Shown in pieces: positions 34,678-50,184 of a DNA stretch of 64,000 nucleotides. A model generated the notes under the pieces. That model searched no databases. It worked only from the letters and a program-made list of their open reading frames with translations, and had not been told where the DNA came from. Position 1 is the stretch's first letter. Each line of letters begins with the position of its first letter. Position numbers and translations under genes: made by a program. The DNA is taken from NCBI GenBank assembly GCA_947486785.1, contig CANKUU010000008.1, positions 62,001-126,000 on the forward strand. The letters run 5' to 3'. The stretch is from an uncultured Flavobacteriaceae bacterium. Lineage in GTDB: Bacteria > Bacteroidota > Bacteroidia > Flavobacteriales > Flavobacteriaceae.

Positions 34678-34751
34678 GGCCCTGTGGCGCAACTGGATAG
34701 CGCATCTGACTACGAATCAGAAGGTTACAAGTTCGAATCTTGTCAGGGTCA
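34678..34751 (+). tRNA. tRNA-Arg (ACG)
   Basis: Cloverleaf of 74 nt: acceptor GGCCCTG pairs with CAGGGTC (one G-U), D arm with GGCGCAACTGGATAGCGC, anticodon stem TCTGA/TCAGA around loop CTACGAA giving anticodon ACG, T arm with GTTCGAAT. Discriminator A; CCA is not encoded. It marks the left edge of the cassette-like region. Confidence 0.95.
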
Positions 34752-34761
34752 CATTATTTTT

Positions 34762-34790: not shown

Positions 34791-35247
34791 AAGTTTAACT
34801 CCTCTTTTTCATCTAATATTCACCTTCAAACTATACCATTTAAGGCGGCTCATCGTTTCCTAGGGCAAATGTTTAAAACCATTTATTTAACCTACCACAA
34901 CTACATATTTTCTCAAGGGCTTTAGATGTGGGTATTACTTGTAGCGTATTACCTTGCAGCACTCGTGCAGTTTTTTGGCAACTGATTAACCATGAGCTTA
35001 CACTATTTCGTACCTTATATAATTTGAATCTAAATGTATTAACCCTTATTTAGGTAACCCAGTTGGTTATGTCTTATGGTATTTGCAAAAATCTAATACA
35101 AACTTACTGTTGGGTGATTTAGGTAGGTATATTTGTTTGTTGACAACAATTTGACAGCTCATCGTTTAAAAACAACAATTCAGAATTTAATTTTTCTAAC
35201 AATAGAATTTTAGATTCATTTTTAATAAAAAATAATTAACTCAACAA
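34791..35247. other. Leader region before the cassette-like array
   Basis: About 460 bases between the tRNA terminator and the first array gene. It lacks a full copy of the array repeats. TATATTTG at 35128-35135 is a possible -7 box that could drive the array; no -33 element at perfect spacing. No integrase fragment seen. Confidence 0.4.
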
Positions 35248-36231
35248 ATGCGACACAAAATTTTTAAACGAATTATTAAGACTCTTTTAATAGGTCTTTT
35301 TATTTATACACTAATATGTTTAACTCTCATTTACTGGCCGATTAAACTTGAAAAAAATGTAAAGAATTATGATTATAGTTCTGTTAAAGAACAAACAGAA
35401 ATAACTATAGGAACTGAACAATGGCTAAAAATGAGAGATGGCTATGAAATTTTTAGTAGCGTTTATAAAAGTCAGAGCAAAGATGTGATGATTCTTATTC
35501 ACGGCTCTGGATCTGAAAGTAGATATTTATCAGAAATTTCAAATGAAATCGCAAGTAAAAATATTGCTACTGTAATAACTCCCGATATAAGAGGACATGG
35601 GAGAAATAAAGGCAGGCGAGGTGATATTGATTTTATTGGACAACTTGAAAACGATATTGAAGATTTAATCCAATTTAGTAATAAAAAACTTTCTGCAAAT
35701 AAAATCATTTTAGCTGGGCATTCATCGGGTGGAGGATTTGTCTTGAGGTACATTGGAAATCCAAAAAACATTCAAGTGGATAAAGCCATTTTACTTGCAC
35801 CCTATTTAGGATATAAGGCGCCAACAGTAAAATCCAATAGTGGAGGATGGGTAAAAGTCGCTTTAAAAAGAATCATCGGACTTTCTATGCTTAATAATTT
35901 GCAGGTAAAAAGTTTAAATCACCTACCTGTATTGTTTTTTAATCGTCCTGAAAACATTAATGACAGCCTACAAGTCCCTTCCTATTCATACAACTTAACA
36001 ATGAATTTTGACACAAAAGACTATCAAAATGAAATAAAAAACATTGATATACCATGTTTGGTCTTGGTCGGTAATGAGGATGAAAGCTTTTACCCTGAAA
36101 AATTTCCAATTGTATTTGAGCCTGCTAAAAAATTTGCACATGTTAAAATAGTAGAAAATGTAAAACATTTAGATATTGTAAAGAACAGTAAAACGTTCAG
36201 GTTAATTGAAGAGTGGAACGAAAAGAATTAA
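35248..36231 (+). CDS. Alpha/beta hydrolase (S33-like), membrane-anchored
   Basis: First unit of the array. One N-terminal membrane helix (about 9-30) anchors an alpha/beta hydrolase resembling monoacylglycerol lipase/serine aminopeptidase S33 proteins. It has HGSGSE (85-90), DIRGHGRNKGRRGD, nucleophile elbow GHSSG (S159), acid residue in LVGNEDESFYPE and catalytic His in ENVKHLDI. Followed directly by palindromic repeat R1. Substrate unknown. Confidence 0.83.
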   Translation: MRHKIFKRIIKTLLIGLFIYTLICLTLIYWPIKLEKNVKNYDYSSVKEQTEITIGTEQWLKMRDGYEIFSSVYKSQSKDVMILIHGSGSESRYLSEISNEIASKNIATVITPDIRGHGRNKGRRGDIDFIGQLENDIEDLIQFSNKKLSANKIILAGHSSGGGFVLRYIGNPKNIQVDKAILLAPYLGYKAPTVKSNSGGWVKVALKRIIGLSMLNNLQVKSLNHLPVLFFNRPENINDSLQVPSYSYNLTMNFDTKDYQNEIKNIDIPCLVLVGNEDESFYPEKFPIVFEPAKKFAHVKIVENVKHLDIVKNSKTFRLIEEWNEKN

Positions 36232-36232
36232 A

Positions 36233-36375
36233 ACTGTTGCCAATACCGTATAAAATTTATGCTATATTTTAAGAAAAATTGTAAATTCCAAACAACCAAT
36301 AACCATTGGTACTAGGCTGGAAATCTGGAGGATTTTAAGCCGCACAAATCTTATACAACCACGTTGCCAAACACT
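36233..36375 (+). repeat. Array repeat R1
   Basis: Begins 1 base after the hydrolase stop. Left end TGTTGCCAATACCGTATAA mirrors the right end TTATACAACCACGTTGCC; centre AAATC-TGGAG-GATTTT is a hairpin. It also contains a perfect ACCAAT-AACC-ATTGGT repeat. Confidence 0.65.
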
Positions 36376-36390
36376 ACAAACGATTAATCA

Positions 36391-37296
36391 ATGAAATACT
36401 ACAAAGCGCTTCTTTTATTACTTGTATTAACACTATTTTTAAATGCCTGCAATACTAAAAACCAAAAATCAAACAATGCTGATTTTCCAGTAGTTAAAGA
36501 TCGTTATTTTGGACAAAAGCCACCAAGTTTAATTCCTGAGCTTTTTGCTCCTGATATTCTTTCTCCAGAAGGCAGTTTAGAACAAGTTACATTTTCGCAT
36601 GATATGAAATCGTGTTACTTTACAAGAACAAACGGTACCTATAATAAACGCACTTTTTTCGTTATCAATTACGAAAATAATCGTTGGGGTCAGGAGGCTG
36701 AGACGGATATAAAATGGCCACAATTTTCAGCTGATGGTAGCAAGATGTTCATGGGCAAACTTTATAGAGAACGAAAGGGTAATACGTGGACAGAACCTAA
36801 AAGTCCTGGAGCTTTTCTCAAGCATATGGCGCATGGGCTATCTGTTTCAGCTAAGGGTACTTACTATTTTACAGCATACCATGAGCCAGGTCCGATTGGT
36901 GCTATTTACTATACGCGACTTGTTAATGGTAACTATGAAGAGCCCATCAAATTAAATGATGATATTAATAGAGGAGCATATATTGCGGGATCTCTAATCT
37001 CCCCCGATGAGTCTTATTTAATCTGGAATGTGGAAAGAGAAGGTGGATATGGGCAATCTGATTTATATATTAGCTTTAAGAAAAATGATGGCACTTGGTC
37101 AAAAACGATGAATATGGGGCCAACCATAAACACTGATATGCAAGAGAGCTCTCCACAAATATCGCCTGATGGTAACTATTTCTTTTTCACACGAGGGGAA
37201 TGGAAGTTAAATAAAGACGGAAAGCGTACTTACATTGGAAAACAATATTGGGTTGATGTTAAGATTATACAGAATCTAAAATCAAAAGAGAACTAA
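36391..37296 (+). CDS. PD40-type beta-propeller lipoprotein
   Basis: Lipoprotein (LNAC, C20) whose mature part holds WD40-like/TolB-type PD40 repeats: [43 protein letters not shown] and [18 protein letters not shown]. Similar exported PD40 proteins occur in Bacteroidota as stand-alone proteins. Function unknown; probably ligand or partner binding. Second unit of the array, followed 45 bases on by repeat R2. Confidence 0.78.
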
Positions 37297-37341
37297 AATA
37301 AAGGAATATACCAGAATTGAAAAGAGAAATAATAAAGAAAC

Positions 37342-37478
37342 GTTTGCGAACAATGTAAAAAATAATAACGGTTTAATCGCTAAAACGAAAGTAAGCGAAT
37401 ATAAAAAAGGTCTGTGTTTTACCGCAAAATTTAGTGTGTAAAAATTCGCTACTATTCTAATACAAAACCGTTGCCATA
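37342..37478 (+). repeat. Array repeat R2
   Basis: Left part AAATAATAACGGTTTAATCG is shared with R13 (AAATAATAGCGGTTTACTC); right arm has GGTCTGTGTTTTACCGC and ends ACAAAACCGTTGCCATAC, matching the right end of R1. Confidence 0.6.
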
Positions 37479-37497
37479 CATAATAAATGAACTAAAA

Positions 37498-38079
37498 ATG
37501 AAGAACCTAATAGTTTTAATTGTATTAACTAGCAGTATTAGTGTATGTAATGCACAAGATTATGAATTCAAAAAAACATCTTTAAAAACAGGAATAGGAA
37601 TTGGTTTTAATGAAGGAGAAAGAGAAACAGGAATCGGACTTGTTTATTCCATTGGATTGCAAAAGACGGTTGGAAAAAAACAAAGGTTCAGGTTAAATCC
37701 AAATTTAATGATAGGCGGTTTTCTGCCTTTTGGAATTACGGATACTCGTGACCAATTCTATAGAATAACTACCATTGGATATAATCTTCATTATGATTTA
37801 ATAAAATATAAATCAATATCAATTGTAACTACCCTTGGTCCTTTTGTATCATATTCTAGAGGACTTTTAGGAACTGGAGGAGATGGAGATTTTCGAAATA
37901 ATAGTTCTGAATTTTTTAATTCTTTCTATTACGGAGGAAATTTTTCAATTGGATTAAGAATAGACTCGCCTAAACGAAAAATAGCTTACGAAATAAGACC
38001 GATAAGCGGAATGGTTGGAAACAATTTTTTTTCACTAGGATATTTAATGTTTGGAATGGATTTTAAATTTAAAAAATAA
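37498..38079 (+). CDS. Secreted beta-barrel-like protein
   Basis: Start chosen at MKNLIVLIVL; an upstream in-frame TTG lies inside repeat R2. Signal peptide with cleavage after CNAQ, then a 170-residue beta-rich, Gly/Tyr/Phe-rich domain ending GYLMFGMDFKFKK, compatible with a small outer-membrane barrel. No family recognised. The unit ends in the 48-bp mini repeat R3. Confidence 0.65.
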   Translation: MKNLIVLIVLTSSISVCNAQDYEFKKTSLKTGIGIGFNEGERETGIGLVYSIGLQKTVGKKQRFRLNPNLMIGGFLPFGITDTRDQFYRITTIGYNLHYDLIKYKSISIVTTLGPFVSYSRGLLGTGGDGDFRNNSSEFFNSFYYGGNFSIGLRIDSPKRKIAYEIRPISGMVGNNFFSLGYLMFGMDFKFKK

Positions 38080-38084
38080 CGAAA

Positions 38085-38132
38085 TGCTAACAATGGCTCT
38101 AAGCAATTTAACACCACCATCGCTAAAACATT
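38085..38132 (+). repeat. Array repeat R3 (minimal copy)
   Basis: Only 48 bases: GCTAACAATGGCTCTAAGC fused almost directly to AACACCACCATCGCTAAAAC. The arms contain AATGG and CCATC, so the outer ends can pair while the central hairpin is lost. Confidence 0.6.
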
Positions 38133-38138
38133 AAAATT

Positions 38139-38858
38139 TTGAAAAAAGCAATTCTCAACGCGATTAAAACTGACTGGAAAACGATTGTAATTGTTTACGG
38201 AATTGCAATGCTTTTGACGTTTTTAGTTCTAAAACTACCAAATGGAATTCGTGGACTTGGATTACTGCTATTTGAATTTAGATTACCTTTCAATTGGAAT
38301 CACGGTATTGCACTTTTAGTAACAACAATAATTGGATACCTGTTTTTTAAGACAAAAAGAGAAACTACCTTATTAGGTAACAATAAAATAAAGAGTATAA
38401 TTTTCCCCGTAATAGTTTTGATTGCTTATTCTATAGTTGGAATTTCGAATAAGTACGGAATAAATCAAAATTTATGGGGTTTATTTTTCGTTTCAATGAC
38501 TTTGGTTTATGACATAATGGAGGAATCTTTTTGGCGTGGCTACCTAAACGACCTCATTAAACCAAAATATCTTGTTATCAAATATATCGTAACGGGAATT
38601 TTATGGTCTTTTTGGCATTTATTACTATTTGAGAATTTTAATCAATGGGGAGGATTTCATATTTACTTACTTTTATCAGTAATAGTTTCGTTTATAATCG
38701 GATTTGCAACAACCAGAACGAATTCGATTTTAGTCGCTGCGTCAATTCACGCTTTGCTGATTAGCCGAGATATGTATGTAACAATAATTTGCTTTGTGAT
38801 TTGGGTAATTATGATTTTAACGTGGAAAAAAACTACTTACAACAAAGCGTATAATTAA
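38139..38858 (+). CDS. CPBP family intramembrane protease
   Basis: Membrane-embedded CAAX-protease/bacteriocin-processing family protein with about seven helices. Active-site motifs are intact: EESFWRGYL (EExxxR, E128-R133), FWHLLLF (H160) and ASIHALL. Start is a TTG six bases after repeat R3. The last eight residues, TTYNKAYN, and the stop are encoded by repeat R4, so the native 3' end has been replaced or extended by it. Such proteins often act in self-immunity or maturation; the role here is unknown. Confidence 0.82.
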   Translation: MKKAILNAIKTDWKTIVIVYGIAMLLTFLVLKLPNGIRGLGLLLFEFRLPFNWNHGIALLVTTIIGYLFFKTKRETTLLGNNKIKSIIFPVIVLIAYSIVGISNKYGINQNLWGLFFVSMTLVYDIMEESFWRGYLNDLIKPKYLVIKYIVTGILWSFWHLLLFENFNQWGGFHIYLLLSVIVSFIIGFATTRTNSILVAASIHALLISRDMYVTIICFVIWVIMILTWKKTTYNKAYN

Positions 38859-38912
38859 TTGTTTAGCCAGTTTACGAAAGTCCTCGCAGACTTTCTATCT
38901 GTGTTTATTTGA
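38833..38912 (+). repeat. Array repeat R4 (3' truncated)
   Basis: CTACTTACAACAAAGCGTAT matches the R9 start CTACTGCCAACAACGTAT. Central hairpin GAAAGTC-CTCGCA-GACTTTC is the best preserved in the array; the right arm stops after CTGTGTTTA. Confidence 0.65.
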
Positions 38913-38937
38913 AAAAAACTTCCGTCCCTAATAAAAA

Positions 38938-39160
38938 ACTAAATGAGACAAGAGGAGATTTAAGACGTTCACCAGAAGTTGACAAACAAGGCCTTCATCG
39001 ATTGGAAAGAGGAACATATTTTTATAATGAGTCAAAGAAAATTGCATCGAAATTAAACGCTGAATTCAACTATAAATTAGTACTTATACCAAATATTGGT
39101 CACGATTTTCGAGAAATGAGTAACGCTGGAGCAGATTATTTATATAAAGTGAAAAAATAA
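38938..39160 (+). pseudogene. C-terminal fragment of an alpha/beta hydrolase
   Basis: The open frame carries about 70 residues resembling the C-terminus of Bacteroidota secreted alpha/beta hydrolases: LRRSPEVDKQGLHRLERG, FYNESKKIASKLN and IPNIGHDFREMS, which includes the catalytic His. The rest of the gene is missing. The formal TTG start (38909) lies in truncated repeat R4, so the deletion probably removed the R4 right arm and the gene's 5' part together. Not expected to be functional. Confidence 0.65.
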
Positions 39161-39380
39161 CTGCGTACAACAACATATCTAAAAAATTGCTATTAAAGTC
39201 TTTACAAAAGGTTTTTATCTTTTTACAAAGACCGGCAAATTTTTAAATTTGGCTTTTAAGGTGAATCAGTTAAAAACAAAATATAAACACTCGGCTCTAT
39301 GTTAACCCGAAAAGTTAGCGTCTTTTTACACGCTACGTTTCATACCCTACAACGCTGGGGCGCATTCGAGAAAAACATTG
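39161..39380 (+). repeat. Array repeat R5
   Basis: Starts at the stop of the fragment with GTACAACAACATATCT, has the right-arm block CCCGAAAAGTTAGCG and a small AGCGT/ACGCT hairpin, and ends CTACAACGCTGGGGCG-CATTCGAGAAAAA, similar to the end of R11b. Confidence 0.6.
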
Positions 39381-39387
39381 TAACTAA

Positions 39388-39972
39388 ATGAAAAACAGAA
39401 AATCTCTTTTGATAATTGATATGCAAAAAGGTTCTTTCACACCTAAAACACCTCGATTTGATACGGACGGCGTTGTTCAGCGAATAAACGAACTTGGTTC
39501 AATATTTAGAGAACAGAATTTTCCTGTGATTTATATTCAACACGATGGAACTGGAACTGGAGAATTTGAAAAAAACTCACCTGAATGGGAAAATCTGGAC
39601 GAATTATTGGTTGAACCAACTGATTTGCGAATTGACAAATATGCTAATGATATTTTTTACAAATCTCAACTTCAATCCGAGCTGATAGAATTGAATATCA
39701 GCGAACTGTTCATAACAGGCTGCGCAACCGATTTTTGTGTTGAATCTACAGTACAATCTGCTTTGACAAAAGATTACCATATAACTGTTGTAGCGAACGG
39801 ACACACAACTGGAGATAGACCTCATTTGAAAGCCGAAAAAGTGATTGAACATTACAATTGGGTTTGGCAGAACATGATACCTACAAAAGGAAAAATAGAG
39901 GTAAAAAACTTTGAAGAAATAAAAAACGACAACACAACAAGGACTAAAGTTAATACGGGTTTTGGAGCTTAA
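39388..39972 (+). CDS. Isochorismatase-family cysteine hydrolase
   Basis: Cysteine hydrolase superfamily protein (isochorismatase, nicotinamidase, ureidoacrylate or N-carbamoyl amidase types). Catalytic triad is complete: D11 in LLIIDMQKG, K84 in IDKYANDIF, C117 in TGCATDFCVESTV; cis-peptide region present. Substrate not predictable. The last 16 residues (ending TKVNTGFGA) and the stop are encoded by family-A repeat R6, which also occurs after the genes at 41431 and 46708. Confidence 0.85.
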   Translation: MKNRKSLLIIDMQKGSFTPKTPRFDTDGVVQRINELGSIFREQNFPVIYIQHDGTGTGEFEKNSPEWENLDELLVEPTDLRIDKYANDIFYKSQLQSELIELNISELFITGCATDFCVESTVQSALTKDYHITVVANGHTTGDRPHLKAEKVIEHYNWVWQNMIPTKGKIEVKNFEEIKNDNTTRTKVNTGFGA

Positions 39973-40060
39973 CCCAAAGTTTAGAACTTTTGAACAAGTT
40001 CGCAAGTTACCCCTTCCCTACTCCCGCACTACTCATAGCCAAAGTCGTAGGTAAAAAGCT
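39921..40060 (+). repeat. Array repeat R6 (family A)
   Basis: AAAAAACGAC followed by AACACAACAAGG and TTAATACGGGTTTTGGAGC matches R11a at 46708 nearly base for base. The right half has ACTACTCATAGCCAAAGTCG, shared with R10b at 46023. Confidence 0.65.
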
Positions 40061-40111
40061 AAAAACTGTAACAAAACTTTAGAAAACATATCCTTATGTA
40101 AAAAGACACAC

Positions 40112-41431
40112 ATGAAAAATATCTTATTCTTAATAATTCTATCTATTTCAATTTTAGGTTGCAAGCAAGAATCAAAAAAATCGGATTCAAAAATTATCAT
40201 TTCTGACATTAAGAACTTTTGGGAAGCTTATGATAAAGTGATAGCTACAAAGGACACTTTGCAACAAGAACAATATTTAAAAGAATTTTTTATTGACAAA
40301 GGAACCTCTGGACAAAAAGCAATGATAGCTGTTAGAGGATACTCCACAAAAGAATATTTATTTGCGATAAATAACTTTCCGAAATTTTGGACTTCGATAC
40401 GGCAAAATACACTTGGTGCGAAAAAGTATCATAAAGAACTTAAAAATGCTATCGATAAACTTGAACAAATTTATCCTGATTTAAAACCTGCCAAGATCTA
40501 TTTTACCATCGGAGCCCTAAGAAGTGGAGGCACTACAATGGACAGTTTAGTTCTAATTGGTTCTGAACTGGCTTTTGCAAACAAGGATATACCAACTAAT
40601 GAATTTCCAAAAAACCTATCTCATTTAAGAGCCTATTTTGATAATGAACCTATTAACAATATTGTTTTTCTCAATCTTCACGAATACGTTCATACGCAGC
40701 AAAAAACTACGATTGGTACAACTTTGTTATCACAAACATTAATTGAGGGTGTAGCGGAGTTCATAGCTTCAAAAGCCTTAAAGGTGGAGTCGCCAAATCC
40801 ACAAATAAAATTCGGAAACGAAAACAACGAGAAAATTAAAGCTGAGTTTTTAAAAGAAATGTTCTCACCATATCTATACAATTGGATTTGGAATAGTCCT
40901 GACAATGAATTTGGAATGCGTGATTTAGCCTATTATGTAGGTTATAAAATCTGTGAAGAATACTATCAATTGGCATCTAATAAATCAGAAGCAATTAAAC
41001 AAATGATAGAATTAGATTACAATAATGAAGATGAATTAATAAAATTTGTGGAAGCCTCAAATTATTTTGCCAAACCATTAATTAATTACAAAAAGTCTTT
41101 TGAAGATAGTCGTCCTAATGTTTTGAGTATTGCACCATTTGAGAACAAGGTGCAGAACGTAAGTTTGAAAACCGAGAAAATAACCATAAATTTCACGCAA
41201 CCAATGGATACTAGATTCCGAAATTTTGAGGTCGGACCACTAGGAAAAGATAATTTGCTAAAATTCAAAGGAAATTTGGCTTTTTCAGAAAATGCGAAGT
41301 CATTGAGTTTAGAAATTGAACCCTTAATACCAAACAAAACCTATCAAATTTTAGTTGGGTCCGGATTTAGAAATATCGATGGAATACCATTAAAACCTTA
41401 TCTAATAGAATTTTCTACTAGTGATAAATAA
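40112..41431 (+). CDS. HExxH-motif lipoprotein with Ig-like C-terminus
   Basis: Lipoprotein (ISILGC, C17). The N-terminal 330 residues carry a zinc-protease-like motif HEYVH (190-194) and a downstream glutamate in IEGVAEFIA (E212/E216), resembling DUF2268-type predicted peptidases. The C-terminal 100 residues (KITINFTQPMDTRFRNFE, IPNKTYQILVG, GIPLKPYLIEFST) look like an SbsA/Big-type Ig-like domain. Predicted membrane-anchored metallopeptidase; substrate unknown. Followed 5 bases after the stop by repeat R7. Confidence 0.7.
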   Translation: MKNILFLIILSISILGCKQESKKSDSKIIISDIKNFWEAYDKVIATKDTLQQEQYLKEFFIDKGTSGQKAMIAVRGYSTKEYLFAINNFPKFWTSIRQNTLGAKKYHKELKNAIDKLEQIYPDLKPAKIYFTIGALRSGGTTMDSLVLIGSELAFANKDIPTNEFPKNLSHLRAYFDNEPINNIVFLNLHEYVHTQQKTTIGTTLLSQTLIEGVAEFIASKALKVESPNPQIKFGNENNEKIKAEFLKEMFSPYLYNWIWNSPDNEFGMRDLAYYVGYKICEEYYQLASNKSEAIKQMIELDYNNEDELIKFVEASNYFAKPLINYKKSFEDSRPNVLSIAPFENKVQNVSLKTEKITINFTQPMDTRFRNFEVGPLGKDNLLKFKGNLAFSENAKSLSLEIEPLIPNKTYQILVGSGFRNIDGIPLKPYLIEFSTSDK

Positions 41432-41436
41432 AAACC

Positions 41437-41624
41437 AGCTACCAACATAACCTATAAACAATACGGGCTTCGAGCTTAATCGAAAGGTTTGTGTATTTTT
41501 AAAGCGTCTGTAAAATCTTTGTATTTTGCTTTTTAATGCGACAAAGAAAAAAATAAAACCAACGTATTTCGCTTTATGCTTGGCGGAAAGCAAACACTAG
41601 TTTGCTCCAGTACTGTTGGTAGCT
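41437..41624 (+). repeat. Array repeat R7 (family A) with 11-bp terminal inverted repeat
   Basis: Ends are a perfect inverted pair: AGCTACCAACA (41437-41447) and TGTTGGTAGCT (41614-41624). The interior has CAATACGGGCTTCGAGC at the left and AGCAAACACTAGTTTGCTCC at the right, both shared with R11a. Confidence 0.75.
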
Positions 41625-41684
41625 CAAGCCTTGGCAATACTTTAAACTCACTCAACTCTGAATGAAAATGTTACATTTGAATTA

Positions 41685-42722
41685 ATGAATTTTATAACTC
41701 AAATATTATTTTTCTTTGGTGCAATAGGAGTTTTTAACAGTTTTATGGTAGCTGTTTATTTGTTGATTAATAAATCGTATTCAAATTTAAGTAATCGACT
41801 CTTTGCATTATTCTTATTCATATTGAACTTAAGAATTTTAAAATCGTTATTCTATGCGTTTTCTACTGATGAACCTATTTGGTTTTTACAATCTGGGCCT
41901 TCTTTTTTCTTACTAATTGGTCCCTTATTTTTTTGCTACACATTACGTATTATCAAACCAAATTCATTTTGGATAACGTATTGGAAACATCATCTTCTAT
42001 TTTGGTTAAGTGTAGTTATTTTCTTGATGATTTTTGTTCCTTTTAAAGAAAATATTGACCTTAACAAAACAATAATTTTACCCATCATAAATTTACAATG
42101 GCTGTTTTTTATCTTACTTTCCGCCATTTTTATAAAATCAAATTTTAAAACGCAAAAGAACAATCAAATCAAAATAAAATGGCTTTTAATTTTAACCTTA
42201 GCCCTATTAACTCTTTGGTCAAACTACACCTTTATAAGTTTTGATTATTTTGTAAGTGGGTCTATTGTTTTTTCAATACTGTTTTATTTGTTCTTTGTGT
42301 ATTTTCTTATTAAAAAAAGATACGCATCAAAAATTTTTGAAAAAACAAAAAAGAAAAACACTTTTAGTTCTTCTCAAAAAAACCTACTTCTTATTAACCA
42401 ATTAAATGAAGTTATGGTTAATGAACAGTTATTTTTAAATTCAAACTTAAAATTATCAGAAGTAGCAGAAAAATTAGATATTTCTGCACACGAATTATCT
42501 AAATTAATTAATGATAGTACAGGTAAAAATTTTACAGATTTTATTAATGAGTATCGAATTGAACAAGCTAAACAATTAATTGAGGATAACTCTTTATACA
42601 CTATTGAAGCAATTGGAAATCAATCCGGATTTAACTCTAAATCAGCATTTTACAAGGCTTTTAATAAATTTACGAAAACTACGCCAGCTAAATATAAAGC
42701 ACAAAAAAGTTCTTTTTTATAA
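41685..42722 (+). CDS. Membrane-bound AraC-type regulator
   Basis: N-terminal part (about 1-215) contains six or seven hydrophobic helices; the C-terminal 100 residues are an AraC/XylS HTH pair with LKLSEVAEKLDISAHELSKL and IEAIGNQSGFNSKSAFYKAFNKF. This layout is common in Flavobacteriia, where a membrane sensor is fused directly to DNA-binding helices. The gene shares a unit with the S41-like lipoprotein 80 bases downstream without a repeat between them, so it may control it. Confidence 0.85.
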   Translation: MNFITQILFFFGAIGVFNSFMVAVYLLINKSYSNLSNRLFALFLFILNLRILKSLFYAFSTDEPIWFLQSGPSFFLLIGPLFFCYTLRIIKPNSFWITYWKHHLLFWLSVVIFLMIFVPFKENIDLNKTIILPIINLQWLFFILLSAIFIKSNFKTQKNNQIKIKWLLILTLALLTLWSNYTFISFDYFVSGSIVFSILFYLFFVYFLIKKRYASKIFEKTKKKNTFSSSQKNLLLINQLNEVMVNEQLFLNSNLKLSEVAEKLDISAHELSKLINDSTGKNFTDFINEYRIEQAKQLIEDNSLYTIEAIGNQSGFNSKSAFYKAFNKFTKTTPAKYKAQKSSFL

Positions 42723-42802
42723 ATCAGAACATTTAAAAGCAAGTACAATACTTCTTTATTTTTGCATTTGAATAGATTTGTTGAAATTCAAAAATAATTA
42801 AA

Positions 42803-44110
42803 ATGAAAATCAACCTTTTTAATATTCTTATTTTGTCAATTTTCTGCTTTTCTTCTTGTAAAGGACAAGAAGTAAAAAAAGAGGAATTAAACGAAAAAGC
42901 TCAAAATTATTTAGCAGATTATAATGAACTAATTGATACGTTGACTACCTATCATCCGGCTCTCTATGAATTTACATCAAAATCTGATTTCGAAAAGAAA
43001 GTTAAACAATTAAGAAATGAAATTGATAATACAACAACCAAAGAAGATTTTATTTGGAAGTTGAGCGAGGTCATTGCTAAAGTTAATTGTGGTCATACTT
43101 CATTAGGTTTTTTTAATCAACAAAGAGATTTACTAAAACCCAAAGACTATTTTCCTCTTCTAACAAGACTTATTCATAATAAACTTTATGTTATCGACAA
43201 TTTAACTAATAAAGATAAGGTAGAAATCGGTCAAGAAATAAGCCAAATTAATGGTAAGTCTATTAGTGAAATTATGTCTAATATTTATGCACATATCAAC
43301 TCTCAGGCAGATATCGAAAGTTCAAAAAGAAGACTTTTTAATGGGTATAATACCGCTATAATTCCTTACGCTTTAAATTTTCCTAATGCTTACAAAATAA
43401 AAATTGCAGGTAAAAATGGAACAATTAGTTTAAAATCACTTCATAAAAACCCGCCTTACGCACCATTATTTAGTAAAAAACACCCTTGCCAAAGTGATTT
43501 TTGTTTAACAGAAGTTAATGCAGAAACCGTTTTATTAACCTTACGAAACTTCGCCTATTATGGTGATAAAACAAAGCTTTTTTTAAATTTCCTAAATAGT
43601 TCTTTTAACGAAATTAAAACCGAAGGCTATAGAAATTTAATAATAGATGTTCGTGAAAATTTAGGAGGACCAGCAGAAGCTTCAATTCATCTCTTAAAAT
43701 ACACACTACAAGAACCTTTTCAATACTTTGTAAATAGTGATTTTGGAAGAAACGAGATATATCAACCTTTTGAAAACAATTTTAAAGGAAAAATCATTTT
43801 TGTAATGAATGGAGATGGTTACTCTACTGTTGGTCATTTAGCATCTATATACAAAGATAAAAATAGAGTAGTTTTTGTTGGAGAAACTTTAGGCTCAAAT
43901 CAATTCTGTACTGCAAATCAAAAACAGTTTGAATTAACGAACACAAAATTTACTTATTCTGTAGCTCGAAACATATTTATTACAGCTATTCAAGAAAAAG
44001 ATCCAAAGGCTGCTATTGAACCAAATATTGAAATTGAACAATCCATTGATGATTTTTTATCAGACAAAGATGTAGTTTTAGAAAAAGCGATAGCATTGAC
44101 TAAAAAATAA
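42803..44110 (+). CDS. S41-like peptidase family lipoprotein
   Basis: Lipoprotein (CFSSC, C19) with tail-specific protease (S41) features: NCGHTSLGF near residue 97, a PDZ-like middle (GQEISQINGKSISEIM), and the catalytic-core segments LIIDVRENLGGPAEASIHLL and NGDGYSTVGHLASIYKDK, where S in GYSTVGH is at the expected nucleophile position. The general-base lysine is not obvious to me, so activity is uncertain. Second gene of the AraC unit, followed by repeat R9. Confidence 0.75.
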   Translation: MKINLFNILILSIFCFSSCKGQEVKKEELNEKAQNYLADYNELIDTLTTYHPALYEFTSKSDFEKKVKQLRNEIDNTTTKEDFIWKLSEVIAKVNCGHTSLGFFNQQRDLLKPKDYFPLLTRLIHNKLYVIDNLTNKDKVEIGQEISQINGKSISEIMSNIYAHINSQADIESSKRRLFNGYNTAIIPYALNFPNAYKIKIAGKNGTISLKSLHKNPPYAPLFSKKHPCQSDFCLTEVNAETVLLTLRNFAYYGDKTKLFLNFLNSSFNEIKTEGYRNLIIDVRENLGGPAEASIHLLKYTLQEPFQYFVNSDFGRNEIYQPFENNFKGKIIFVMNGDGYSTVGHLASIYKDKNRVVFVGETLGSNQFCTANQKQFELTNTKFTYSVARNIFITAIQEKDPKAAIEPNIEIEQSIDDFLSDKDVVLEKAIALTKK

Positions 44111-44112
44111 AA

Positions 44113-44205
44113 ACTACTGCCAACAACGTATATAGCTTATTTGCCAAATTGATAAATTTAAAAATTTGACTTGTGCTTCACCAAAAAGTTACGCATACAA
44201 CTGAT
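44113..44205 (+). repeat. Array repeat R9
   Basis: Starts 2 bases after the stop with CTACTGCCAACAACGTATAT; centre CAAATT...AATTTG hairpin; right arm TTGTGCTTCACC then AAAAAGTTACGCATACAAC. Confidence 0.65.
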
Positions 44206-44244
44206 CTACTTTTCTTATATTAGACTAGTAGAGTAGCTTTAATT

Positions 44245-44952
44245 ATGAAAAAAACTAAGACTATTAAATTTTCAATTACCCTAATGCTGATTTTAATAGC
44301 TGGTATGGTAAAAGGAAATGCCCAAACTGAGAAAATTAAAAATTTGGATAATAACTCTTATTTTACGATAAATTTATTATCCTCATTAAATACGTTCAAT
44401 CCTCGTTGGCGCATTGGTTACATCAAAAATATAAATGAAAAGTGGAAAGCTGGACTAGACATTGGATATGGAAATCGAAATTTGTCTTTTTCTGATTTTG
44501 GCGATAAGATTGGGAAAGATTATCAAATATGGGAATTTAGACCCGAATTATATCATATTATCAATCCTGAACGTAAAACAAAAAAATACTTTTCTCTCGA
44601 ATTATTTTATATCAATCATAAAGATATTTTTTATAACCAACATTACTTTCCTGTTAGCGGAGAATCAATGTCCTATGATAAATCTGATTTTAAAAGACAG
44701 AAATATGGTTTAAACTTAAAATATGGTTTCATTATTTATTCAAAAAAGAGATTAGGATTAAACCTATATACTGGATTGGGACTGAGAATAAGAAGAAACA
44801 CTTTTTCAAATGTCATAAACCCGAATTTTGTAGATTTAGGTCCCGAAGGGGGTGATATGTTTGGGTTTGATGATTATAAAAACTTGGAAGGTACCGTTTT
44901 TGGCGCTAATTTTTCATTCGGAATTAAATTATACTACAGATTAAAAAGCTAA
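44245..44952 (+). CDS. Secreted beta-barrel-like protein
   Basis: Signal peptide (cleavage after GNAQ, about residue 27) followed by a roughly 205-residue beta-rich domain: YFTINLLSSLNTFNPRWRIGY, AGLDIGYGNRNLSF, FSLELFYINHK and a final LGANFSFGIKLYYR-like strand (here FGANFSFGIKLYYRLKS). It fits a small outer-membrane barrel. No family recognised. Its stop codon touches repeat R10. Confidence 0.65.
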   Translation: MKKTKTIKFSITLMLILIAGMVKGNAQTEKIKNLDNNSYFTINLLSSLNTFNPRWRIGYIKNINEKWKAGLDIGYGNRNLSFSDFGDKIGKDYQIWEFRPELYHIINPERKTKKYFSLELFYINHKDIFYNQHYFPVSGESMSYDKSDFKRQKYGLNLKYGFIIYSKKRLGLNLYTGLGLRIRRNTFSNVINPNFVDLGPEGGDMFGFDDYKNLEGTVFGANFSFGIKLYYRLKS

Positions 44953-45093
44953 AGCTAACAATAGCTATAAGTAATTGCTTGTTCTTGCCTACTTCTGAAA
45001 ATCTGCGAAGATTTTAGGTTTGGTCTGTGCTTAGAAAGTTAAATGCAAAACGACGAAACTAACCTTATACAAGACCATCGCCATTAATTTTGA
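44953..45093 (+). repeat. Array repeat R10 (full length)
   Basis: GCTAACAATAGCTATAAG at the left, central hairpin AAAATC-TGCGAA-GATTTT, right arm GGTCTGTGCTTAG then AAAGTTAAATGC, and right end CTTATACAAGACCATCGCC. A good example of the complete element. Confidence 0.7.
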
Positions 45094-45149
45094 CCCATCT
45101 TAAATAAAGGCTACTTAATCTTAAACCATTAGGTACAAAATGACAAGCT

Positions 45150-45865
45150 AATTAAACGATATTGCGAACCTTTATTCAAATACCAATGGCGTTTTTAAAC
45201 GTGGTTTAAGAACAATTGTAACTGAAAAACCAATACGTCGCGCTAATGCAGCTTTTATGCCCATTAATATAATAATGGAAATTTCAAGCTATTGCAAAGA
45301 GAATAATTATAGAATGCATTTAGATGGAGCACAAATACATCTAGCATTTGCTTTCTCCAGCACCTCACTTTCAGCACATGCATCATATTTTGATGCCATT
45401 TTATAGTTCTCTCTATAAATTTGTAAACGCCGCCGTTGGGGCGATACTATGTGGTGCTGCAAAAATCATTAACCAAATTTCACCTCAAATAAAAATACGT
45501 GGAAAAAACTGTATTTCAAAACTGCAACCATACGTCTGTAGCATTGCATTATTTACATAGTATTAATGAACGATTGAATGAAGTTGTTCAAATGTCTTTT
45601 AAAATAGTTTCTGAGTTACCTAAAATAGATGGCATAGGTATAACAAGTTTTAAAAACAACACCAATATGTATCATTTAAAATAAAGTGACGCCATAAGTT
45701 TAAAAAAACTTGCTATATTTCTATTTAATAAACATCACATTGGGTTGGTTAACGCAAATGATATAGGCGTTGTGAAGTTTACTGCTAATGAAAGTTTATG
45801 ATCAAAAGATGATAAAGACATTCTTTTGGCTCAAAAAAAAGGAATTGTAAAAGCGCGCCAATAAA
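45150..45865 (+). pseudogene. Decayed threonine aldolase-type PLP enzyme
   Basis: Frame pieces in several frames reconstruct the middle and end of a low-specificity threonine aldolase: PIRRANAAFMPIN, YRMHLDGAQIHLAFAFS, then after stops and frameshifts KFVNAAVGAILCGAAKIINQ, NCNHTSVALHYLHSINERLN and a C-terminal LVNANDIGVVKFTANESL. At least two frameshifts and in-frame stops near 45402 break it. The N-terminal third, including the first part of the fold, is missing or unrecognisable. The catalytic Lys segment is degraded. A dead cassette held between R10 and R10b. Confidence 0.75.
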
Positions 45866-46009
45866 AAGCCTTACTTTACATTATAGATAGCAAATAAGAC
45901 GGTTAGTGCTTGTTTGTAAAATCGCCATTTTTTTTGATTTAGTATTAAAAGAGAAAAATTAAAACAAAATAAACAGTTTTGACTAAGAGATTAATCGGAA
46001 GAACAGTTC

Positions 46010-46078
46010 CATTTAATCTATTACTACTCATAGCCGAAGCCGCTATAAAACATATAAGACCGCTATTAACTAAATTAA
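46010..46078 (+). repeat. Array repeat R10b (right half)
   Basis: ACTACTCATAGCCGAAGCCG (46023-46042) matches R6; right end CATATAAGACCGCTATTAAC resembles other right ends. The left half is not recognisable, probably decayed with the pseudogene. Confidence 0.5.
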
Positions 46079-46084
46079 AACGGA

Positions 46085-46708
46085 ATGACAGGACCAGATA
46101 AGCACATAAAATTTCCACTTAATAATTATGACAAGCTTTGCTTTTTAAAAAATATAGTAAAAAACCCTAACATAATTGTTGGAGACTACACCTATTATGA
46201 TGATTTTGAAAATGTGGAAAATTTTGAAAAAAATGTAAAATATCATTTTGACTTTGTTGATGACAAATTAATAATTGGAAAATTCTGTATGATTGCTTCT
46301 GACGTTAAATTTATAATGAACGGAGCAAATCATTTAACCAACTCATTATCGACTTATCCTTTTGCGATTTTTGGAAATGGTTGGGAAAATGCAATGGATG
46401 GAAAGAGCTATCCAAAAAAAGGAAATATTACTATAGGCAACGATGTTTGGATAGGTTACAATGCAACTATTATGGCAGGAGTAACAATTGGAGATGGCGC
46501 AATTATTGCCACAAACGCTACCGTAATTAAAGATGTAGCGCCTTATTCAATTGTAGGGGGAAACCCGGCTAAAGAAATTAAAAAAAGATTTTCAAAAGAG
46601 ATCATTAGCAAATTGTTAGCGCTGAAATGGTGGAATTGGGATATTGAAAAAATTACACAAAACTTACAGCATTTAACAGGTAATGAAATTAAAAATATAA
46701 CGGAATAA
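46085..46708 (+). CDS. Vat/CatB-family xenobiotic O-acetyltransferase
   Basis: Left-handed parallel beta-helix acetyltransferase of the streptogramin A/chloramphenicol (VatA/CatB) group. Hexapeptide repeats run from about 60 to 175 with ITIGNDVWIGYNATIMAGV and IGDGAIIATNATVI; the catalytic His lies in NGANHLTNSL (H83, near VatD His82); STYPFAIFGNGWE and the KWWNWDIEKI tail are family signatures. It would acetylate a hydroxyl of an antibiotic-like molecule using acetyl-CoA; real substrate untested. Followed immediately by family-A repeat R11a. Confidence 0.88.
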   Translation: MTGPDKHIKFPLNNYDKLCFLKNIVKNPNIIVGDYTYYDDFENVENFEKNVKYHFDFVDDKLIIGKFCMIASDVKFIMNGANHLTNSLSTYPFAIFGNGWENAMDGKSYPKKGNITIGNDVWIGYNATIMAGVTIGDGAIIATNATVIKDVAPYSIVGGNPAKEIKKRFSKEIISKLLALKWWNWDIEKITQNLQHLTGNEIKNITE

Positions 46709-46925
46709 AAAAACGAACACAAAACAAGAGCTATAATTAATACGGGGTTTGGTGCTTAATTTAAAATGAAGTGCCTTTTTATAAGATTCCCCATTTTTTT
46801 TTGGATTTTGCTCCTAACAGCAAAAAATAAATCAAAACAAAAAAATTTTGCAATTTACGTAGCGCAAAGCAAACCTTGGTTTACTCCTATATTGTTCTTT
46901 GCTTAAGTGTTAACTGCAAGCTAAA
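46708..46925 (+). repeat. Array repeat R11a (family A)
   Basis: Left end CAAGAGCTATAATTAATACG then GGGTTTGGTGCTTAAT matches R6 and R7; right part AGCAAACCTTGGTTTACTCC matches the R7 block AGCAAACACTAGTTTGCTCC. Confidence 0.65.
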
Positions 46926-46929
46926 AAAA

Positions 46930-47145
46930 CCTCACAGGTTCAAGCACATTTGGTTTTGCTTTTACTTTAAAAAATAAAAAGAGCTTGCCTTTTTCCACCA
47001 CAGACCAAACATAAAAACGAGCATAAAACTCACAATTTTATGAGATAAAATATTTATTTTTAAATAAGTAATAAACCGAAACAACACTACGTATCACCTG
47101 CCTTGTGTTTCATACACAAGACTGTTGAAAGCCATTTGAGAAAAA
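46930..47145 (+). repeat. Array repeat R11b (contains an inverted arm)
   Basis: CACAGACCAAACATAAAAAC at about 47002-47021 is the reverse complement of the GGTCTGTG right-arm block of R2 and R10. The right end CATACACAAGACTGTTG then CATTTGAGAAAAA resembles R5. Looks like two array repeats joined, one inverted. Confidence 0.5.
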
Positions 47146-47152
47146 TAGAACT

Positions 47153-47914
47153 ATGAACAAAATTTTGACCCTATTTTTAGTATTTTTTTTAGTTGCATCT
47201 TGTCATAAGAAAACTAAAAAAACGAAAATTCTTTTCATAACAACCAATGTTAATGAAATGAAAAATGAATCAAATGGTACTTACTTAATTGAATTAGCAA
47301 TTCCATTCAAGCAATTTTCTGAAAAACAGTTTTCAATTGATATTATATCACCAAAAGGAGGTAAAATACCACTCTACCATAGCGGAGACACAACGAGTTT
47401 AGTTAAATCTATTATCAGAAGTGAGCTATTTAAAAATAAGACAAATAATAGTTTAAAACCGACAGAAATAAATCCAGAAGCGTATTTAGCCGTTATCATT
47501 CCTGGTGGATATGGTCAATTTTGGGACACTCATAAAGATTCAGATATTCTTCGAGTGATATCAGAAATATATGATAATGGTGGAATTGTTGGAACCATCG
47601 GTCACGGAACAGCAACACTTATCGATGTGAAATTGAATTCAGAAGAATATTTAGTAAAAGACAAGACAATGACAAGTTTTCCTACTTGGAATGAAAAGAA
47701 CATAATGAAACAGTCCGACTATGGAAAGCTGTTGCCTTATGATATGGAAACGGAATTGTTAAAAAGAGGTGCTAATTTAAAAGTGTATAATCACGAAAAG
47801 AAAATAAATTATGAAATCGTAGATTCTGAAAATAGATTAATAACTGCTTCTTTTTCTACTAGTGGAAAATTTGTAGCTGATGAAGTTTTAAAGTTAATTG
47901 ATCAAATGAAATAA
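47153..47914 (+). CDS. DJ-1/PfpI-like lipoprotein lacking the active Cys
   Basis: Lipoprotein (VASC, C17) with a DJ-1/Hsp31-type domain: IIPGGYGQFWD (115-125) and the nucleophile-elbow region IVGTIGHGTATL. Active members read C-H-G here (for example AAICHGPAAL); this protein has G150-H151-G152, so the catalytic cysteine is replaced by glycine. Possibly a binding protein or inactive homologue, or glyoxalase-type chemistry is lost. Array unit between R11b and R12. Confidence 0.78.
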   Translation: MNKILTLFLVFFLVASCHKKTKKTKILFITTNVNEMKNESNGTYLIELAIPFKQFSEKQFSIDIISPKGGKIPLYHSGDTTSLVKSIIRSELFKNKTNNSLKPTEINPEAYLAVIIPGGYGQFWDTHKDSDILRVISEIYDNGGIVGTIGHGTATLIDVKLNSEEYLVKDKTMTSFPTWNEKNIMKQSDYGKLLPYDMETELLKRGANLKVYNHEKKINYEIVDSENRLITASFSTSGKFVADEVLKLIDQMK

Positions 47915-47918
47915 AAAA

Positions 47919-48065
47919 CGGCTTTTAAGATCTTGTAAAATTAAAAGCGAGCACTAGCCTACCTATGAAAATCATTGCAGATGTTCTATTTGGTTTGTGT
48001 TTGCTAAATTACCTGTGTAACCAGACAACGAAAACATACACAAAACCAGTTCATGGAATTATAAA
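47919..48065 (+). repeat. Array repeat R12
   Basis: Starts a few bases after the stop. Central hairpin GAAAATC-ATTGCA-GATGTTC followed by TATTTGGTTTGTGTTTGC, as in R4/R10. Right end ACATACACAAAACCAGTTCATG. Confidence 0.6.
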
Positions 48066-48074
48066 CAGACTTCA

Positions 48075-49520
48075 TTGAAAAAATTAAGATTCATACTTCT
48101 ATTAGCAATACTTCTTATTGCTTGCAAACAAAATCCCAAAATGGAATTGAGTTTAACCGCTATAAATTCAGAAATAGAGTTTAAAAAAAAGCGTACGCAA
48201 CTCAATCAAGATGTACTTAAATATGTAAAATTTAGCTCTGATACCATTGCTCTAAAAAATGCGACCGTTTATGATGGAAAAGGAAATCCCGCTAAAAAAA
48301 ACCAAACCATAATTGTTATAAATGGATATTTTAAATCCATTGTACAAAATTCAGAAATTAAGATTCCAAAAAATGCAGAGGTAATAAATTTAGAAGGAAA
48401 AACTATTATTCCTGGAATTGTTGGAGTTCATAACCATCTTCATATTCCAAGATTTCACTTTGTAGGAGATATTGCATCAAAATTATATTTGGCTTCTGGA
48501 GTAACCACTATTCAAACTTGTGGTTCAGCATCACCAGAACAAGACGTAGCACTTTCTAATAAAATAAAAAAAGGGGAGTCTCTTGGTCCAAACATCATAA
48601 CAAGTGGCCCTTATTTTACAGGAAAAGGAGGTAGCTCTAGTATGATTATTCCAAAAAACGAAAAACAGATTAGGGACACTATTAAATACTGGACCAAAAA
48701 AGGAGTTACTTGGTTTAAAGTGTACAGACATACGACCCCAAGCGATTTAAAAGTAATAATTGCGGAAGCTCACAAGCAAAATGCAAAAGTAACAGGTCAT
48801 TTATGTTCAATCACTTTTGAACAAGCATCAAAATTAGGAATTGACGGAATAGAACACGGATTTAATAGCACAAGTGATTTTAGAAAAAATAAAACCTTTG
48901 GAATTTGTGATGGTTCACGAGAATATATAGATGAATTAGATGTTGAAAGTAAAAGTGTACAACAACTTCAACAATTAATGATTGATAAAAATGTCTTTTT
49001 AACTTCCACTTTAGCGATTTATGAAACAAGTATTCCGCTTAGAGCTGTTGCAGATGAACGGACATTAAAAATAATGGCACCCTTTTTACTTTCACAATAT
49101 CATGAAAGAAGAAATAGTTATAATTCCCAAAAGTCACGTGAAAACCTAAGAGAAAAAAGACTAAAACGTATAATGGAATTTGAGTATCAATTTTTTAAAA
49201 TGGGCGGAACGCTAACAGCAGGTGTAGACGCCGCAAGGCACTTGCTTCCTGGTTTTGGTGACCAACGAAATTTTGAGCTACTTAAAGAAGCTGGTTTTAC
49301 AAATGAAGAAACACTTAAAATTATGACTAGTAATGGAGCGAAAGTACTTTCGGACTCTGAAATAGGAACTATTGAAAAAAACAAAAAAGCTGATTTTATT
49401 GTTATTAAAGGAACTATTGAAAAAGGCATACGAAATATAGATTTCGTTTTCAAAGATGGTTACGGATATGACCCACGGTTAATAGTAGAGGAACTGAATG
49501 GAAAATTTGGAATAGAATAA
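48075..49520 (+). CDS. Amidohydrolase-family lipoprotein
   Basis: Metal-dependent hydrolase (imidazolonepropionase/prolidase-like amidohydrolase). Start is a TTG giving MKKLRFILLL and a lipobox LIAC (C17). Metal ligands: HNHLH in IPGIVGVHNHLHIPRF, K in WFKVYRHTT, H in VTGHLCS, H in GIEHGFNS, D in TAGVDAARHLLPG. The C-terminal EIGTIEKNKKADFIVIKG returns to the N-terminal beta sandwich. Substrate unknown, possibly small peptides or cyclic amides. Confidence 0.83.
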   Translation: MKKLRFILLLAILLIACKQNPKMELSLTAINSEIEFKKKRTQLNQDVLKYVKFSSDTIALKNATVYDGKGNPAKKNQTIIVINGYFKSIVQNSEIKIPKNAEVINLEGKTIIPGIVGVHNHLHIPRFHFVGDIASKLYLASGVTTIQTCGSASPEQDVALSNKIKKGESLGPNIITSGPYFTGKGGSSSMIIPKNEKQIRDTIKYWTKKGVTWFKVYRHTTPSDLKVIIAEAHKQNAKVTGHLCSITFEQASKLGIDGIEHGFNSTSDFRKNKTFGICDGSREYIDELDVESKSVQQLQQLMIDKNVFLTSTLAIYETSIPLRAVADERTLKIMAPFLLSQYHERRNSYNSQKSRENLREKRLKRIMEFEYQFFKMGGTLTAGVDAARHLLPGFGDQRNFELLKEAGFTNEETLKIMTSNGAKVLSDSEIGTIEKNKKADFIVIKGTIEKGIRNIDFVFKDGYGYDPRLIVEELNGKFGIE

Positions 49521-49640
49521 CTGCTGGTAACTTGTTTAAAAATAATAGCGGTTTACTCACTTAAAAAAGTAAATAACGGCTTTGGTTAACCAAAAAGTTG
49601 GTGTGTGAAAACATGTTATTAATTATTTACTAAACTCTTA
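49521..49640 (+). repeat. Array repeat R13
   Basis: Directly follows the stop: CTGCTGGTAACTTGT, AAATAATAGCGGTTTACTC (shared with R2), ACCAAAAAGTTGGTGTGTG (right-arm block). Right end weakly conserved. Confidence 0.55.
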
Positions 49641-49650
49641 CAAAATCGAA

Positions 49651-50184
49651 ATGGAAAATTACCTATTTAAATCCGAACGATTAGGATTTAGAAATTGGAC
49701 AGCGCATGATAAAATAAAAATGGGGCGTATTAACGCTGACCCAAAAGTGATGGAATATTTTCCAACGAGTATATCGCAAAAACAAACTGATGCATTCATT
49801 GACCGAATGAAAACTCAATTTTCTGAAAATGGATATTGTTATTTTGCGGTTGAGAAACTTAAAACCAAAGAATTTATAGGTTTTATTGGAATCGCAAAAC
49901 AAACCTTTGAATCTGATTTTACACCTTGCGTAGATATTGGTTGGAGATTAGCTAAAACCGAGTGGGGAAAAGGTTTTGCTACTGAAGGCGCAAAGAAATG
50001 CCTAGAATATGCATTTGACAAAATAGGACTGCAAAATATTAAATCAATCTGTCCTAAGGTGAATGAAAAATCAGAAAAAGTGATGAAAAAAATAGGAATG
50101 AAAAAGATTAAAAATTTTAATCACCCACTACTTTCTAAATGCACAGATTTAGAAGAATGTGTATTGTATGAAATTGAAAAATAA
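49651..50184 (+). CDS. GNAT N-acetyltransferase (RimL-like)
   Basis: A 177-residue acetyl-CoA-dependent transferase. It shows N-terminal ERLGFRNWTAHD, mid-strand FIGFIGIAKQTF, the acetyl-CoA loop W-GKGFATEGAKKCLEYAF (motif Q/R-x-x-G-x-A equivalent at GKGFATEG) and motif B IKSICPKVNEKSEKVMKKIGM. Closest to RimJ/RimL-type proteins that act on small molecules or protein N-termini. Last gene of the array, followed by R14. Confidence 0.87.
   Translation: MENYLFKSERLGFRNWTAHDKIKMGRINADPKVMEYFPTSISQKQTDAFIDRMKTQFSENGYCYFAVEKLKTKEFIGFIGIAKQTFESDFTPCVDIGWRLAKTEWGKGFATEGAKKCLEYAFDKIGLQNIKSICPKVNEKSEKVMKKIGMKKIKNFNHPLLSKCTDLEECVLYEIEK

Follow-up and report, generated by a model that had tools for sequence, protein, structure and literature searches.

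Integrons, including the superintegrons of Vibrio, combine a tyrosine recombinase encoded beside an attachment site, attI, with long one-way arrays of unrelated small gene cassettes. An attC site lies 3' of each cassette gene, its bottom strand folds best, exchange takes place at a GTT triplet, and the first bases of a cassette are complementary to the left end of its own attC. Integrase-free arrays also occur, as clusters of attC sites lacking integron-integrases (CALIN). Surveys have found integrons nearly absent from Bacteroidota (PMC9024848). The IntegronFinder 2.0 survey lists only In0 elements and one complete integron, that of Salinibacter ruber M1, all found by IntI-domain and attC models (PMC9024848); they belong to the same phylum as the DNA studied here, and the complete integron lies outside Flavobacteriaceae. 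A study of attC taxonomy has no Bacteroidota model (PMC8352920), and work on archaeal integrons recognizes IntI among tyrosine recombinases by its own IntI-specific domain (PMC9668308). Here we describe a system of Flavobacteriaceae that shares the integron features named above, exchange at its GTT triplet being presumed. It was approached through repeats in a 64,000-nucleotide stretch from an uncultured Flavobacteriaceae bacterium (the window; assembly GCA_947486785.1, contig CANKUU010000008.1, positions 62,001 to 126,000), which itself holds an integrase-free cluster. We found no description of this system in the open literature; an earlier account in subscription papers or preprints is possible.

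The repeats lie directly behind stop codons and contain stable hairpins. Comparison with related arrays indicates with high confidence that they are attC-like recombination sites of integron-like gene cassettes, each cassette being a gene with the repeat behind it, and that a tyrosine recombinase of about 375-400 amino acids (Pfam PF00589) is the probable enzyme joining them. Cassette units, their boundaries, an attI, a common polarity, a bottom-strand fold bias, an association with the recombinase and a wide spread can all be demonstrated at the level of sequence. In the genome that supplied the window, the integrase gene is intact (G000:C24:384-1508) and is followed by an attI (..ACAATTGTTGCCATT).

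Six catalytic positions (R235, K260, H324, R327, H350, and Y359) are invariant in 11 sequences of this integrase. Its nearest catalytic domains, by both sequence and fold, are those of XerA, XerC and XerD (NF040815, PDB 4a8e and 5hxy), and it matches the NCBIfam model NF040815 'recomb_XerA_Arch' and resembles XerA as much as IntI. Unlike the dif system of XerA/C/D, it has a dedicated gene, an attI, cassettes and an added N-terminal domain. A conventional chromosomal integron with a typical IntI, as yet unannotated, would share the layout of integrase, attI, attC and cassettes as well as the GTT triplet and the bottom-strand folding, but the protein makes this explanation unlikely. Where VchIntIA carries about 56 residues (188-244), the IntI-specific insertion, or patch, the query has 13 (283-296). 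The integron-integrase model TIGR02249 reaches only 189-218 bits against a cut-off of 265 and matches in two pieces (profile 8-181 and 239-314), the gap falling at the position of IntI's own domain. Matches to TIGR02249, all below the cut-off, were obtained in 14/14 genomes of the genus and also in 14 control genomes, so the model alone does not discriminate; the protein of about 375-400 amino acids forms the strongest class among them. Further differences from integrons concern the sites. The attI, which carries a palindrome, follows the 3' end of an integrase gene co-oriented with the cassettes; the attC-like sites fall into two fixed size classes; and the complementarity comprises GTT plus 7 bases, compared with the 7-base RYYYAAC/GTTRRRY box. 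Because the IntI domain was looked for and is missing, the system is not filed as a canonical integron, although it works like one.

The additional N-terminal domain of the integrase, about 80-105 amino acids long with conserved F24, K35, W42, and S43, has no family in Pfam. A structure model (predicted local distance difference test score 84) shows the order strand-strand-helix-strand-strand-helix. Foldseek returned no significant match for this domain (best E 0.2), the HARP domain of SMARCAL1 ranking third and sixth (E 0.4-0.6). VIA-align 2 superimposed it on XPB damage-recognition domains with Z 6.0 (root-mean-square deviation 2.0-2.4, 56-57 residues) and on HARP with Z 4.0, such Z values being frequent by chance. 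Purely as a hypothesis drawn from the model, the domain might read the folded attC. We tentatively raise the possibility that this is a second integron lineage, in which a patch-less Xer-like recombinase gained the use of folded single-stranded attC, perhaps through an N-terminal domain similar to those with which XPB and SMARCAL1 (HARP) read forked or damaged DNA, and which gave most Flavobacteriaceae large private cassette stores.

The initial annotation of the window described the repeats as having a conserved central hairpin, a fixed right-hand block and mirrored ends, and took compensating differences as a sign that the folded form is selected. We recovered these elements. Central hairpins occur at about 36321 (GAAATC-TGGAG-GATTTT), 38875 (GAAAGTC-CTCGC-AGACTTTC), 44997 (GAAAATC-TGCGAA-GATTTT) and 47967 (GAAAATC-ATTGC-AGATGTTC), the block TSTGTGYTT..AAAGTTA is present, and the ends read CAACAAYG-TATA and TATAC-AA-CC-GTTGCC. 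Beyond the central hairpin, the mirrored ends pair to an outer stem of 16 bp, which is the strongest part of the fold, and the window also holds a second, longer site type that had not been separated. Site lengths are bimodal, at 120-125 nt (about 122) and 185-190 nt (about 187). In the alignment of good copies the core reads AAC-AATGGCTATAAGTAATTGC...GAAAATCC-TCGC-GGATTTTC...TTGGTGTGTACTTGCAAAGTTAAGTGC...GCAACTACTCATAGCCGAGACC-GTT, and the bases outside AAC and GTT are free. The window copies are poorly alike among themselves. The copy at 44953-45090 has 13 BLAST matches in its own genome, which holds 39 site matches in all, and matches in 10/14 genomes of the genus.

The covariation analysis proposed by the initial annotation was run on 57 distinct copies from relatives, those of the window alone being too few and too decayed. 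Compensating changes were borne out by these tens of copies: 19 of the 26 stem pairs show double compensatory changes, and the outer stem varies in register between G-C, C-G and A-T, or between T-A and G-C. The covariation score was 0.259, compared with 0.084 (sd 0.007) for shuffled alignments, none of 500 of which reached it, and 0.04-0.08 for slid controls; the alignments were not fitted to a structure, but some of their sequences are related, for which reason the shuffle count should not be read as a probability. The selected strand can be read from the mismatches. In the outer stem the top strand shows 141 A.C and only 4 G.T mismatches, and an A.C on the + strand is a G.T wobble on the - strand, which means that selection acts on folding of the bottom DNA strand rather than of the gene's RNA. 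The bottom strand is the more stable one in 52/57 copies, and the RNAalifold consensus energy is -15.2 kcal/mol for the bottom and -1.4 kcal/mol for the top strand. By the covariation criterion the repeat fold is under selection on the bottom strand, as in integrons, and it is this single-strand fold of attC that is conserved. Structured RNA elements or mRNA 3'-end terminators would fit the position of the repeats directly after stop codons and their stable hairpins, but the A.C mismatches of the mRNA-like strand (141 against 4 G.T) would break an RNA helix and the consensus energy of that strand is poor. An Rfam scan of the window returned tRNA alone and no match to the repeat, and selection for an RNA fold leaves unexplained that the variable bases of the repeat match the far side of the gene. 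We regard this explanation as highly improbable.

The match across the gene defines the cassette. A cassette starts with GTTR-N6 and ends with the reverse complement, N6-YAAC, on the other side of the gene; a typical one reads GTT GGCATTA ATT, gene, stop codon, AAC TAATGCC AAC, site. In integrons the outer attC boxes are joined solely in the circular cassette, and in a linear array the right box stands before the gene. Complementarity of the cassette ends across the gene and not across the repeat is thus the same arrangement as in integrons. Among neighboring sites picked by profile only, without use of complementarity, 21/38 agree at 6-7 of the 7 positions that follow GTT. The two ends of a single repeat do so in 3/70 cases and random pairings in 2.7% (Fisher 2.5e-9). 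Where neighbors do not match, a site of the other class probably lies undetected between them. With GTT[AG] as the anchor, 215 starts and ends were linked at site-length spacing, and 33 other triplet settings gave 0-31; the value of 31 belongs to TTG[CT], which is the same signal shifted by one base. These controls used fixed spacing, AAA and TTT dominating when composition is not normalized, and comparing forward with reverse chains cannot serve as a control, since GTT..AAC reads the same on both strands. A check of the outer box showed AAC/GTT and the purine of position 4 to be retained and positions 5-6 to be free; with about 10 bp, the complementarity exceeds the classical box in length.

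In total, 284 linked cassettes were obtained from 49 loci. The main open reading frame (ORF) is on the + strand in 89% of them and fills 90% of a cassette of about 0.8 kb, with its start codon about 31 nt after GTT. Intact chains of 16 and 20 consecutive cassettes were found in two complete chromosomes, in which the site arrays extend over about 60 kb beside the integrase. A near-identical stretch (98.5%, 1167 bp) is shared by two unrelated arrays and has ACC-GTT at its left boundary. Spread beside genes by a transposase, as for miniature inverted-repeat transposable elements or repetitive extragenic palindromic elements, is scarcely credible: the copy number (39 in the own genome) and the palindromic ends would suit such elements, but the arrays are ordered in one direction with one gene per interval, the repeats keep to narrowly defined lengths, their outermost 7 bases are variable and complementary to the far side of the gene instead of the opposite end of the repeat, and the starting point of the arrays behind a tyrosine recombinase is constant.

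Some further observations concern the cassettes themselves. Adjacent tandem duplicates of equal length and with the same ends were seen at two loci (L139 9404-10561 and L133 12151-13723; 517 bp twice and 725 bp twice). Cassette proteins are very varied. The 91 proteins from related arrays (alignment A5) fall into 57 Pfam families, hardly any of them repeated, and include DNA methylases and single matches to anti-phage defence models.

The fixed starting point of the arrays is the attI. In one congener (G013), GTTGGCATTCATT lies 27 nt behind the integrase stop codon and is followed by four consecutive cassettes with matching ends. For family-A integrases of named isolates (Arenibacter, Maribacter, Zobellia uliginosa, Cellulophaga, Flagellimonas pacifica, Leeuwenhoekiella aequorea, and others), a palindrome such as AGTAACTTGTTACT precedes the GTT of the first cassette, which stands 44-48 nt downstream of the stop codon; this cassette has matching ends at 26 of 30 informative loci. 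Outside family A the distance is 27-146 nt. Across Bacteroidota the attI rule holds at 18/21 loci, compared with 11% of control windows. When integrase loci from different species are aligned, homology stops at the attI GTT, within 3 nt of it in 21 of 50 alignments and exactly there in 11. Xer-driven modules like the pdif modules of Acinetobacter plasmids, in which Xer-type recombinases (XerC/D) move genes flanked by short dif-like sites in inverted pairs and which, to our knowledge, have neither a long foldable attC nor an attI, merit next to no credence despite the nearness of the integrase to Xer proteins (NF040815), as the sites here are foldable, 120-190 nt long and set in one direction from an attI beside a dedicated recombinase, and no inverted 28-bp dif-like pairs were noticed, no search aimed at dif having been made.

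Maribacter sp. 1_MG-2023 has two integrase-attI loci (L158 and L198), whose mutual homology stops at the attI GTT. Draft contigs often end about 50-160 bp past the integrase stop codon, at attI (L079, L151, L163, L165, L178, L181, L199, and others), indicating that assemblies break at cassette arrays and so hide them. Persicobacter sp. JZB09 has a related integrase on a plasmid of 395 kb (L206 9001-10137), with no recognizable attI or array.

The integrase was detected by profile search in 92 of 296 well-assembled Bacteroidota species. Among 80 Flavobacteriaceae genomes, drawn at about one per genus, 64 carry the integrase and 71 the short site, a per-genome count of 44 sites meaning at least 44. 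Sites are absent from 7/16 integrase-negative genomes and from 2/64 integrase-positive ones (p 1e-4).

We propose that each gene and the repeat behind it form a cassette able to exist as a circle. The tyrosine recombinase, encoded elsewhere in the genome right before attI, would join cassettes to attI or to each other. Its probable substrate, as for integron integrases, is the folded single bottom strand of the repeat, and strands would be exchanged at the GTT triplet, between G and TT. Circular intermediates, capture at attI, the G/TT exchange, folding of single-stranded attC in vivo and this integrase as the enzyme are thus the presumed components. Several points weigh against the cassette interpretation. 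No recombination event was observed, the evidence consisting of sequence. The integrase lacks the IntI insertion, so recognition of a folded attC by the known mechanism is not a given, and the sites carry GTTR in place of GTTRRRY. The GTT[AG] anchor of the triplet test was picked after the data had been seen. Six of the 16 integrase-negative genomes have at least 5 sites, and the window lacks an integrase and has matching ends at only one or two cassettes. If the interpretation is correct, a large system of cassette exchange is present in most members of Flavobacteriaceae, a family abundant in the sea. It appears to have gone unrecognized because its integrase lacks the feature used for finding integrons; current tools are not built to see it because they require the IntI patch and a classical attC. 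The system would allow one to test directly whether recombination of folded attC depends on the patch, and would offer a large, still unread reservoir of cassettes (hydrolases, acetyltransferases, regulators, methyltransferases, and many of unknown function).

Within the window, ORFs, site matches and Pfam delimit a cassette array without integrase at 35140..50184 on the + strand, with about 13 unrelated genes and attC-like sites between them. It is flanked by tRNA-Arg and apt on one side and by a degQ-like protease gene on the other. The left limit may lie at about 35147, where GTTGACAACA resembles the reverse complement of TGTTGCCAAT at 36233. Profiles from related arrays detect ten sites, which fall into two length classes, and some others were recognized by eye, all on the + strand. 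Detected sites are confined to 36.2-48.1 kb, with nothing comparable in the rest of the 64 kb; in the reversed window, used as a control, the best profile match had E 0.069. The array is an old, partly decayed, integrase-free cassette stretch.

Short-type sites lie at 36233..36368 (site 1, decayed, right end GTTGCCAAAC; profile match 36301-36365, E 3e-4), 37349..37472 (site 2, AAC ... GTTGCCATAC; match 37360-37472, E 9e-10), 38841..38927 (site 4, R4 of the initial annotation, lacking its right end; E 1.7e-9), 39936..40048 (site 6; E 6e-8), 44957..45078 (site 9, formerly R10, the best copy in the window; match 44957-45075, E 3e-12, and 2e-26 with an earlier profile) and 47934..48047 (site 12, formerly R12; E 2e-17). 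Long-type sites lie at 39170..39348 (site 5; E 3.5e-20), 41444..41632 (site 7, with GCTACCAAC ... GTTGGTAGC close to its ends; E 3.7e-32), 45899..46042 (site 10, lacking its left part; E 1.1e-14) and 46723..46907 (site 11; E 1.2e-20). By eye, we assigned a weak site 3 at 38089..38130, of which an internal deletion has left only the left end (GCTAACAATGGCT), and by direct reading site 8 at 44122..44205, whose right half is degenerate (AACAACGTATATAG .. CTTGTGCTTCACCAAAAAGTTA) and for which profiles were not significant. The best preserved cassette, also identified by direct reading, spans 41630..44124 and encodes an AraC-type regulator and an S41 peptidase. It starts with CTTGGCAATAC and ends with CTACTGCCAAC, 6 of the 7 variable bases being complementary. 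The ends of the other cassettes in the window are eroded.

Pfam assigned further cassette genes, all on the + strand, to an S33-type alpha/beta hydrolase (35248..36231), a PD40 (WD40-like) protein (36391..37296), a CPBP/Rce1-like protease (38139..38858), an isochorismatase (39388..39972), a GldB-like lipoprotein (40112..41431), a hexapeptide transferase (46085..46708), a DJ-1/PfpI protein (47153..47914), an amidohydrolase (48075..49520) and a GNAT acetyltransferase (49651..50184). The window genes are accessory functions, typical cassette cargo. At 45150-45660, inside the array, there is an apparently broken remnant of a threonine-aldolase-like gene (YRMHLDGAQI run), recognized by eye, which is in keeping with decay of the array.

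On the right of the array, degQ has a near orthologue (at least 65% identity) in just two congeners. A direct repeat of the tRNA-Arg 3' end, a mark of genomic islands, was not found in the window. The array begins directly behind tRNA-Arg(acg) (34678-34752), which lies beside apt. In three congeners (G001:C16, G006:C42, and G012:C16), tyrosine-integrase genes are found at a distance of 1-2 kb from apt, which makes this tRNA-Arg(acg) look like an insertion hotspot for islands.

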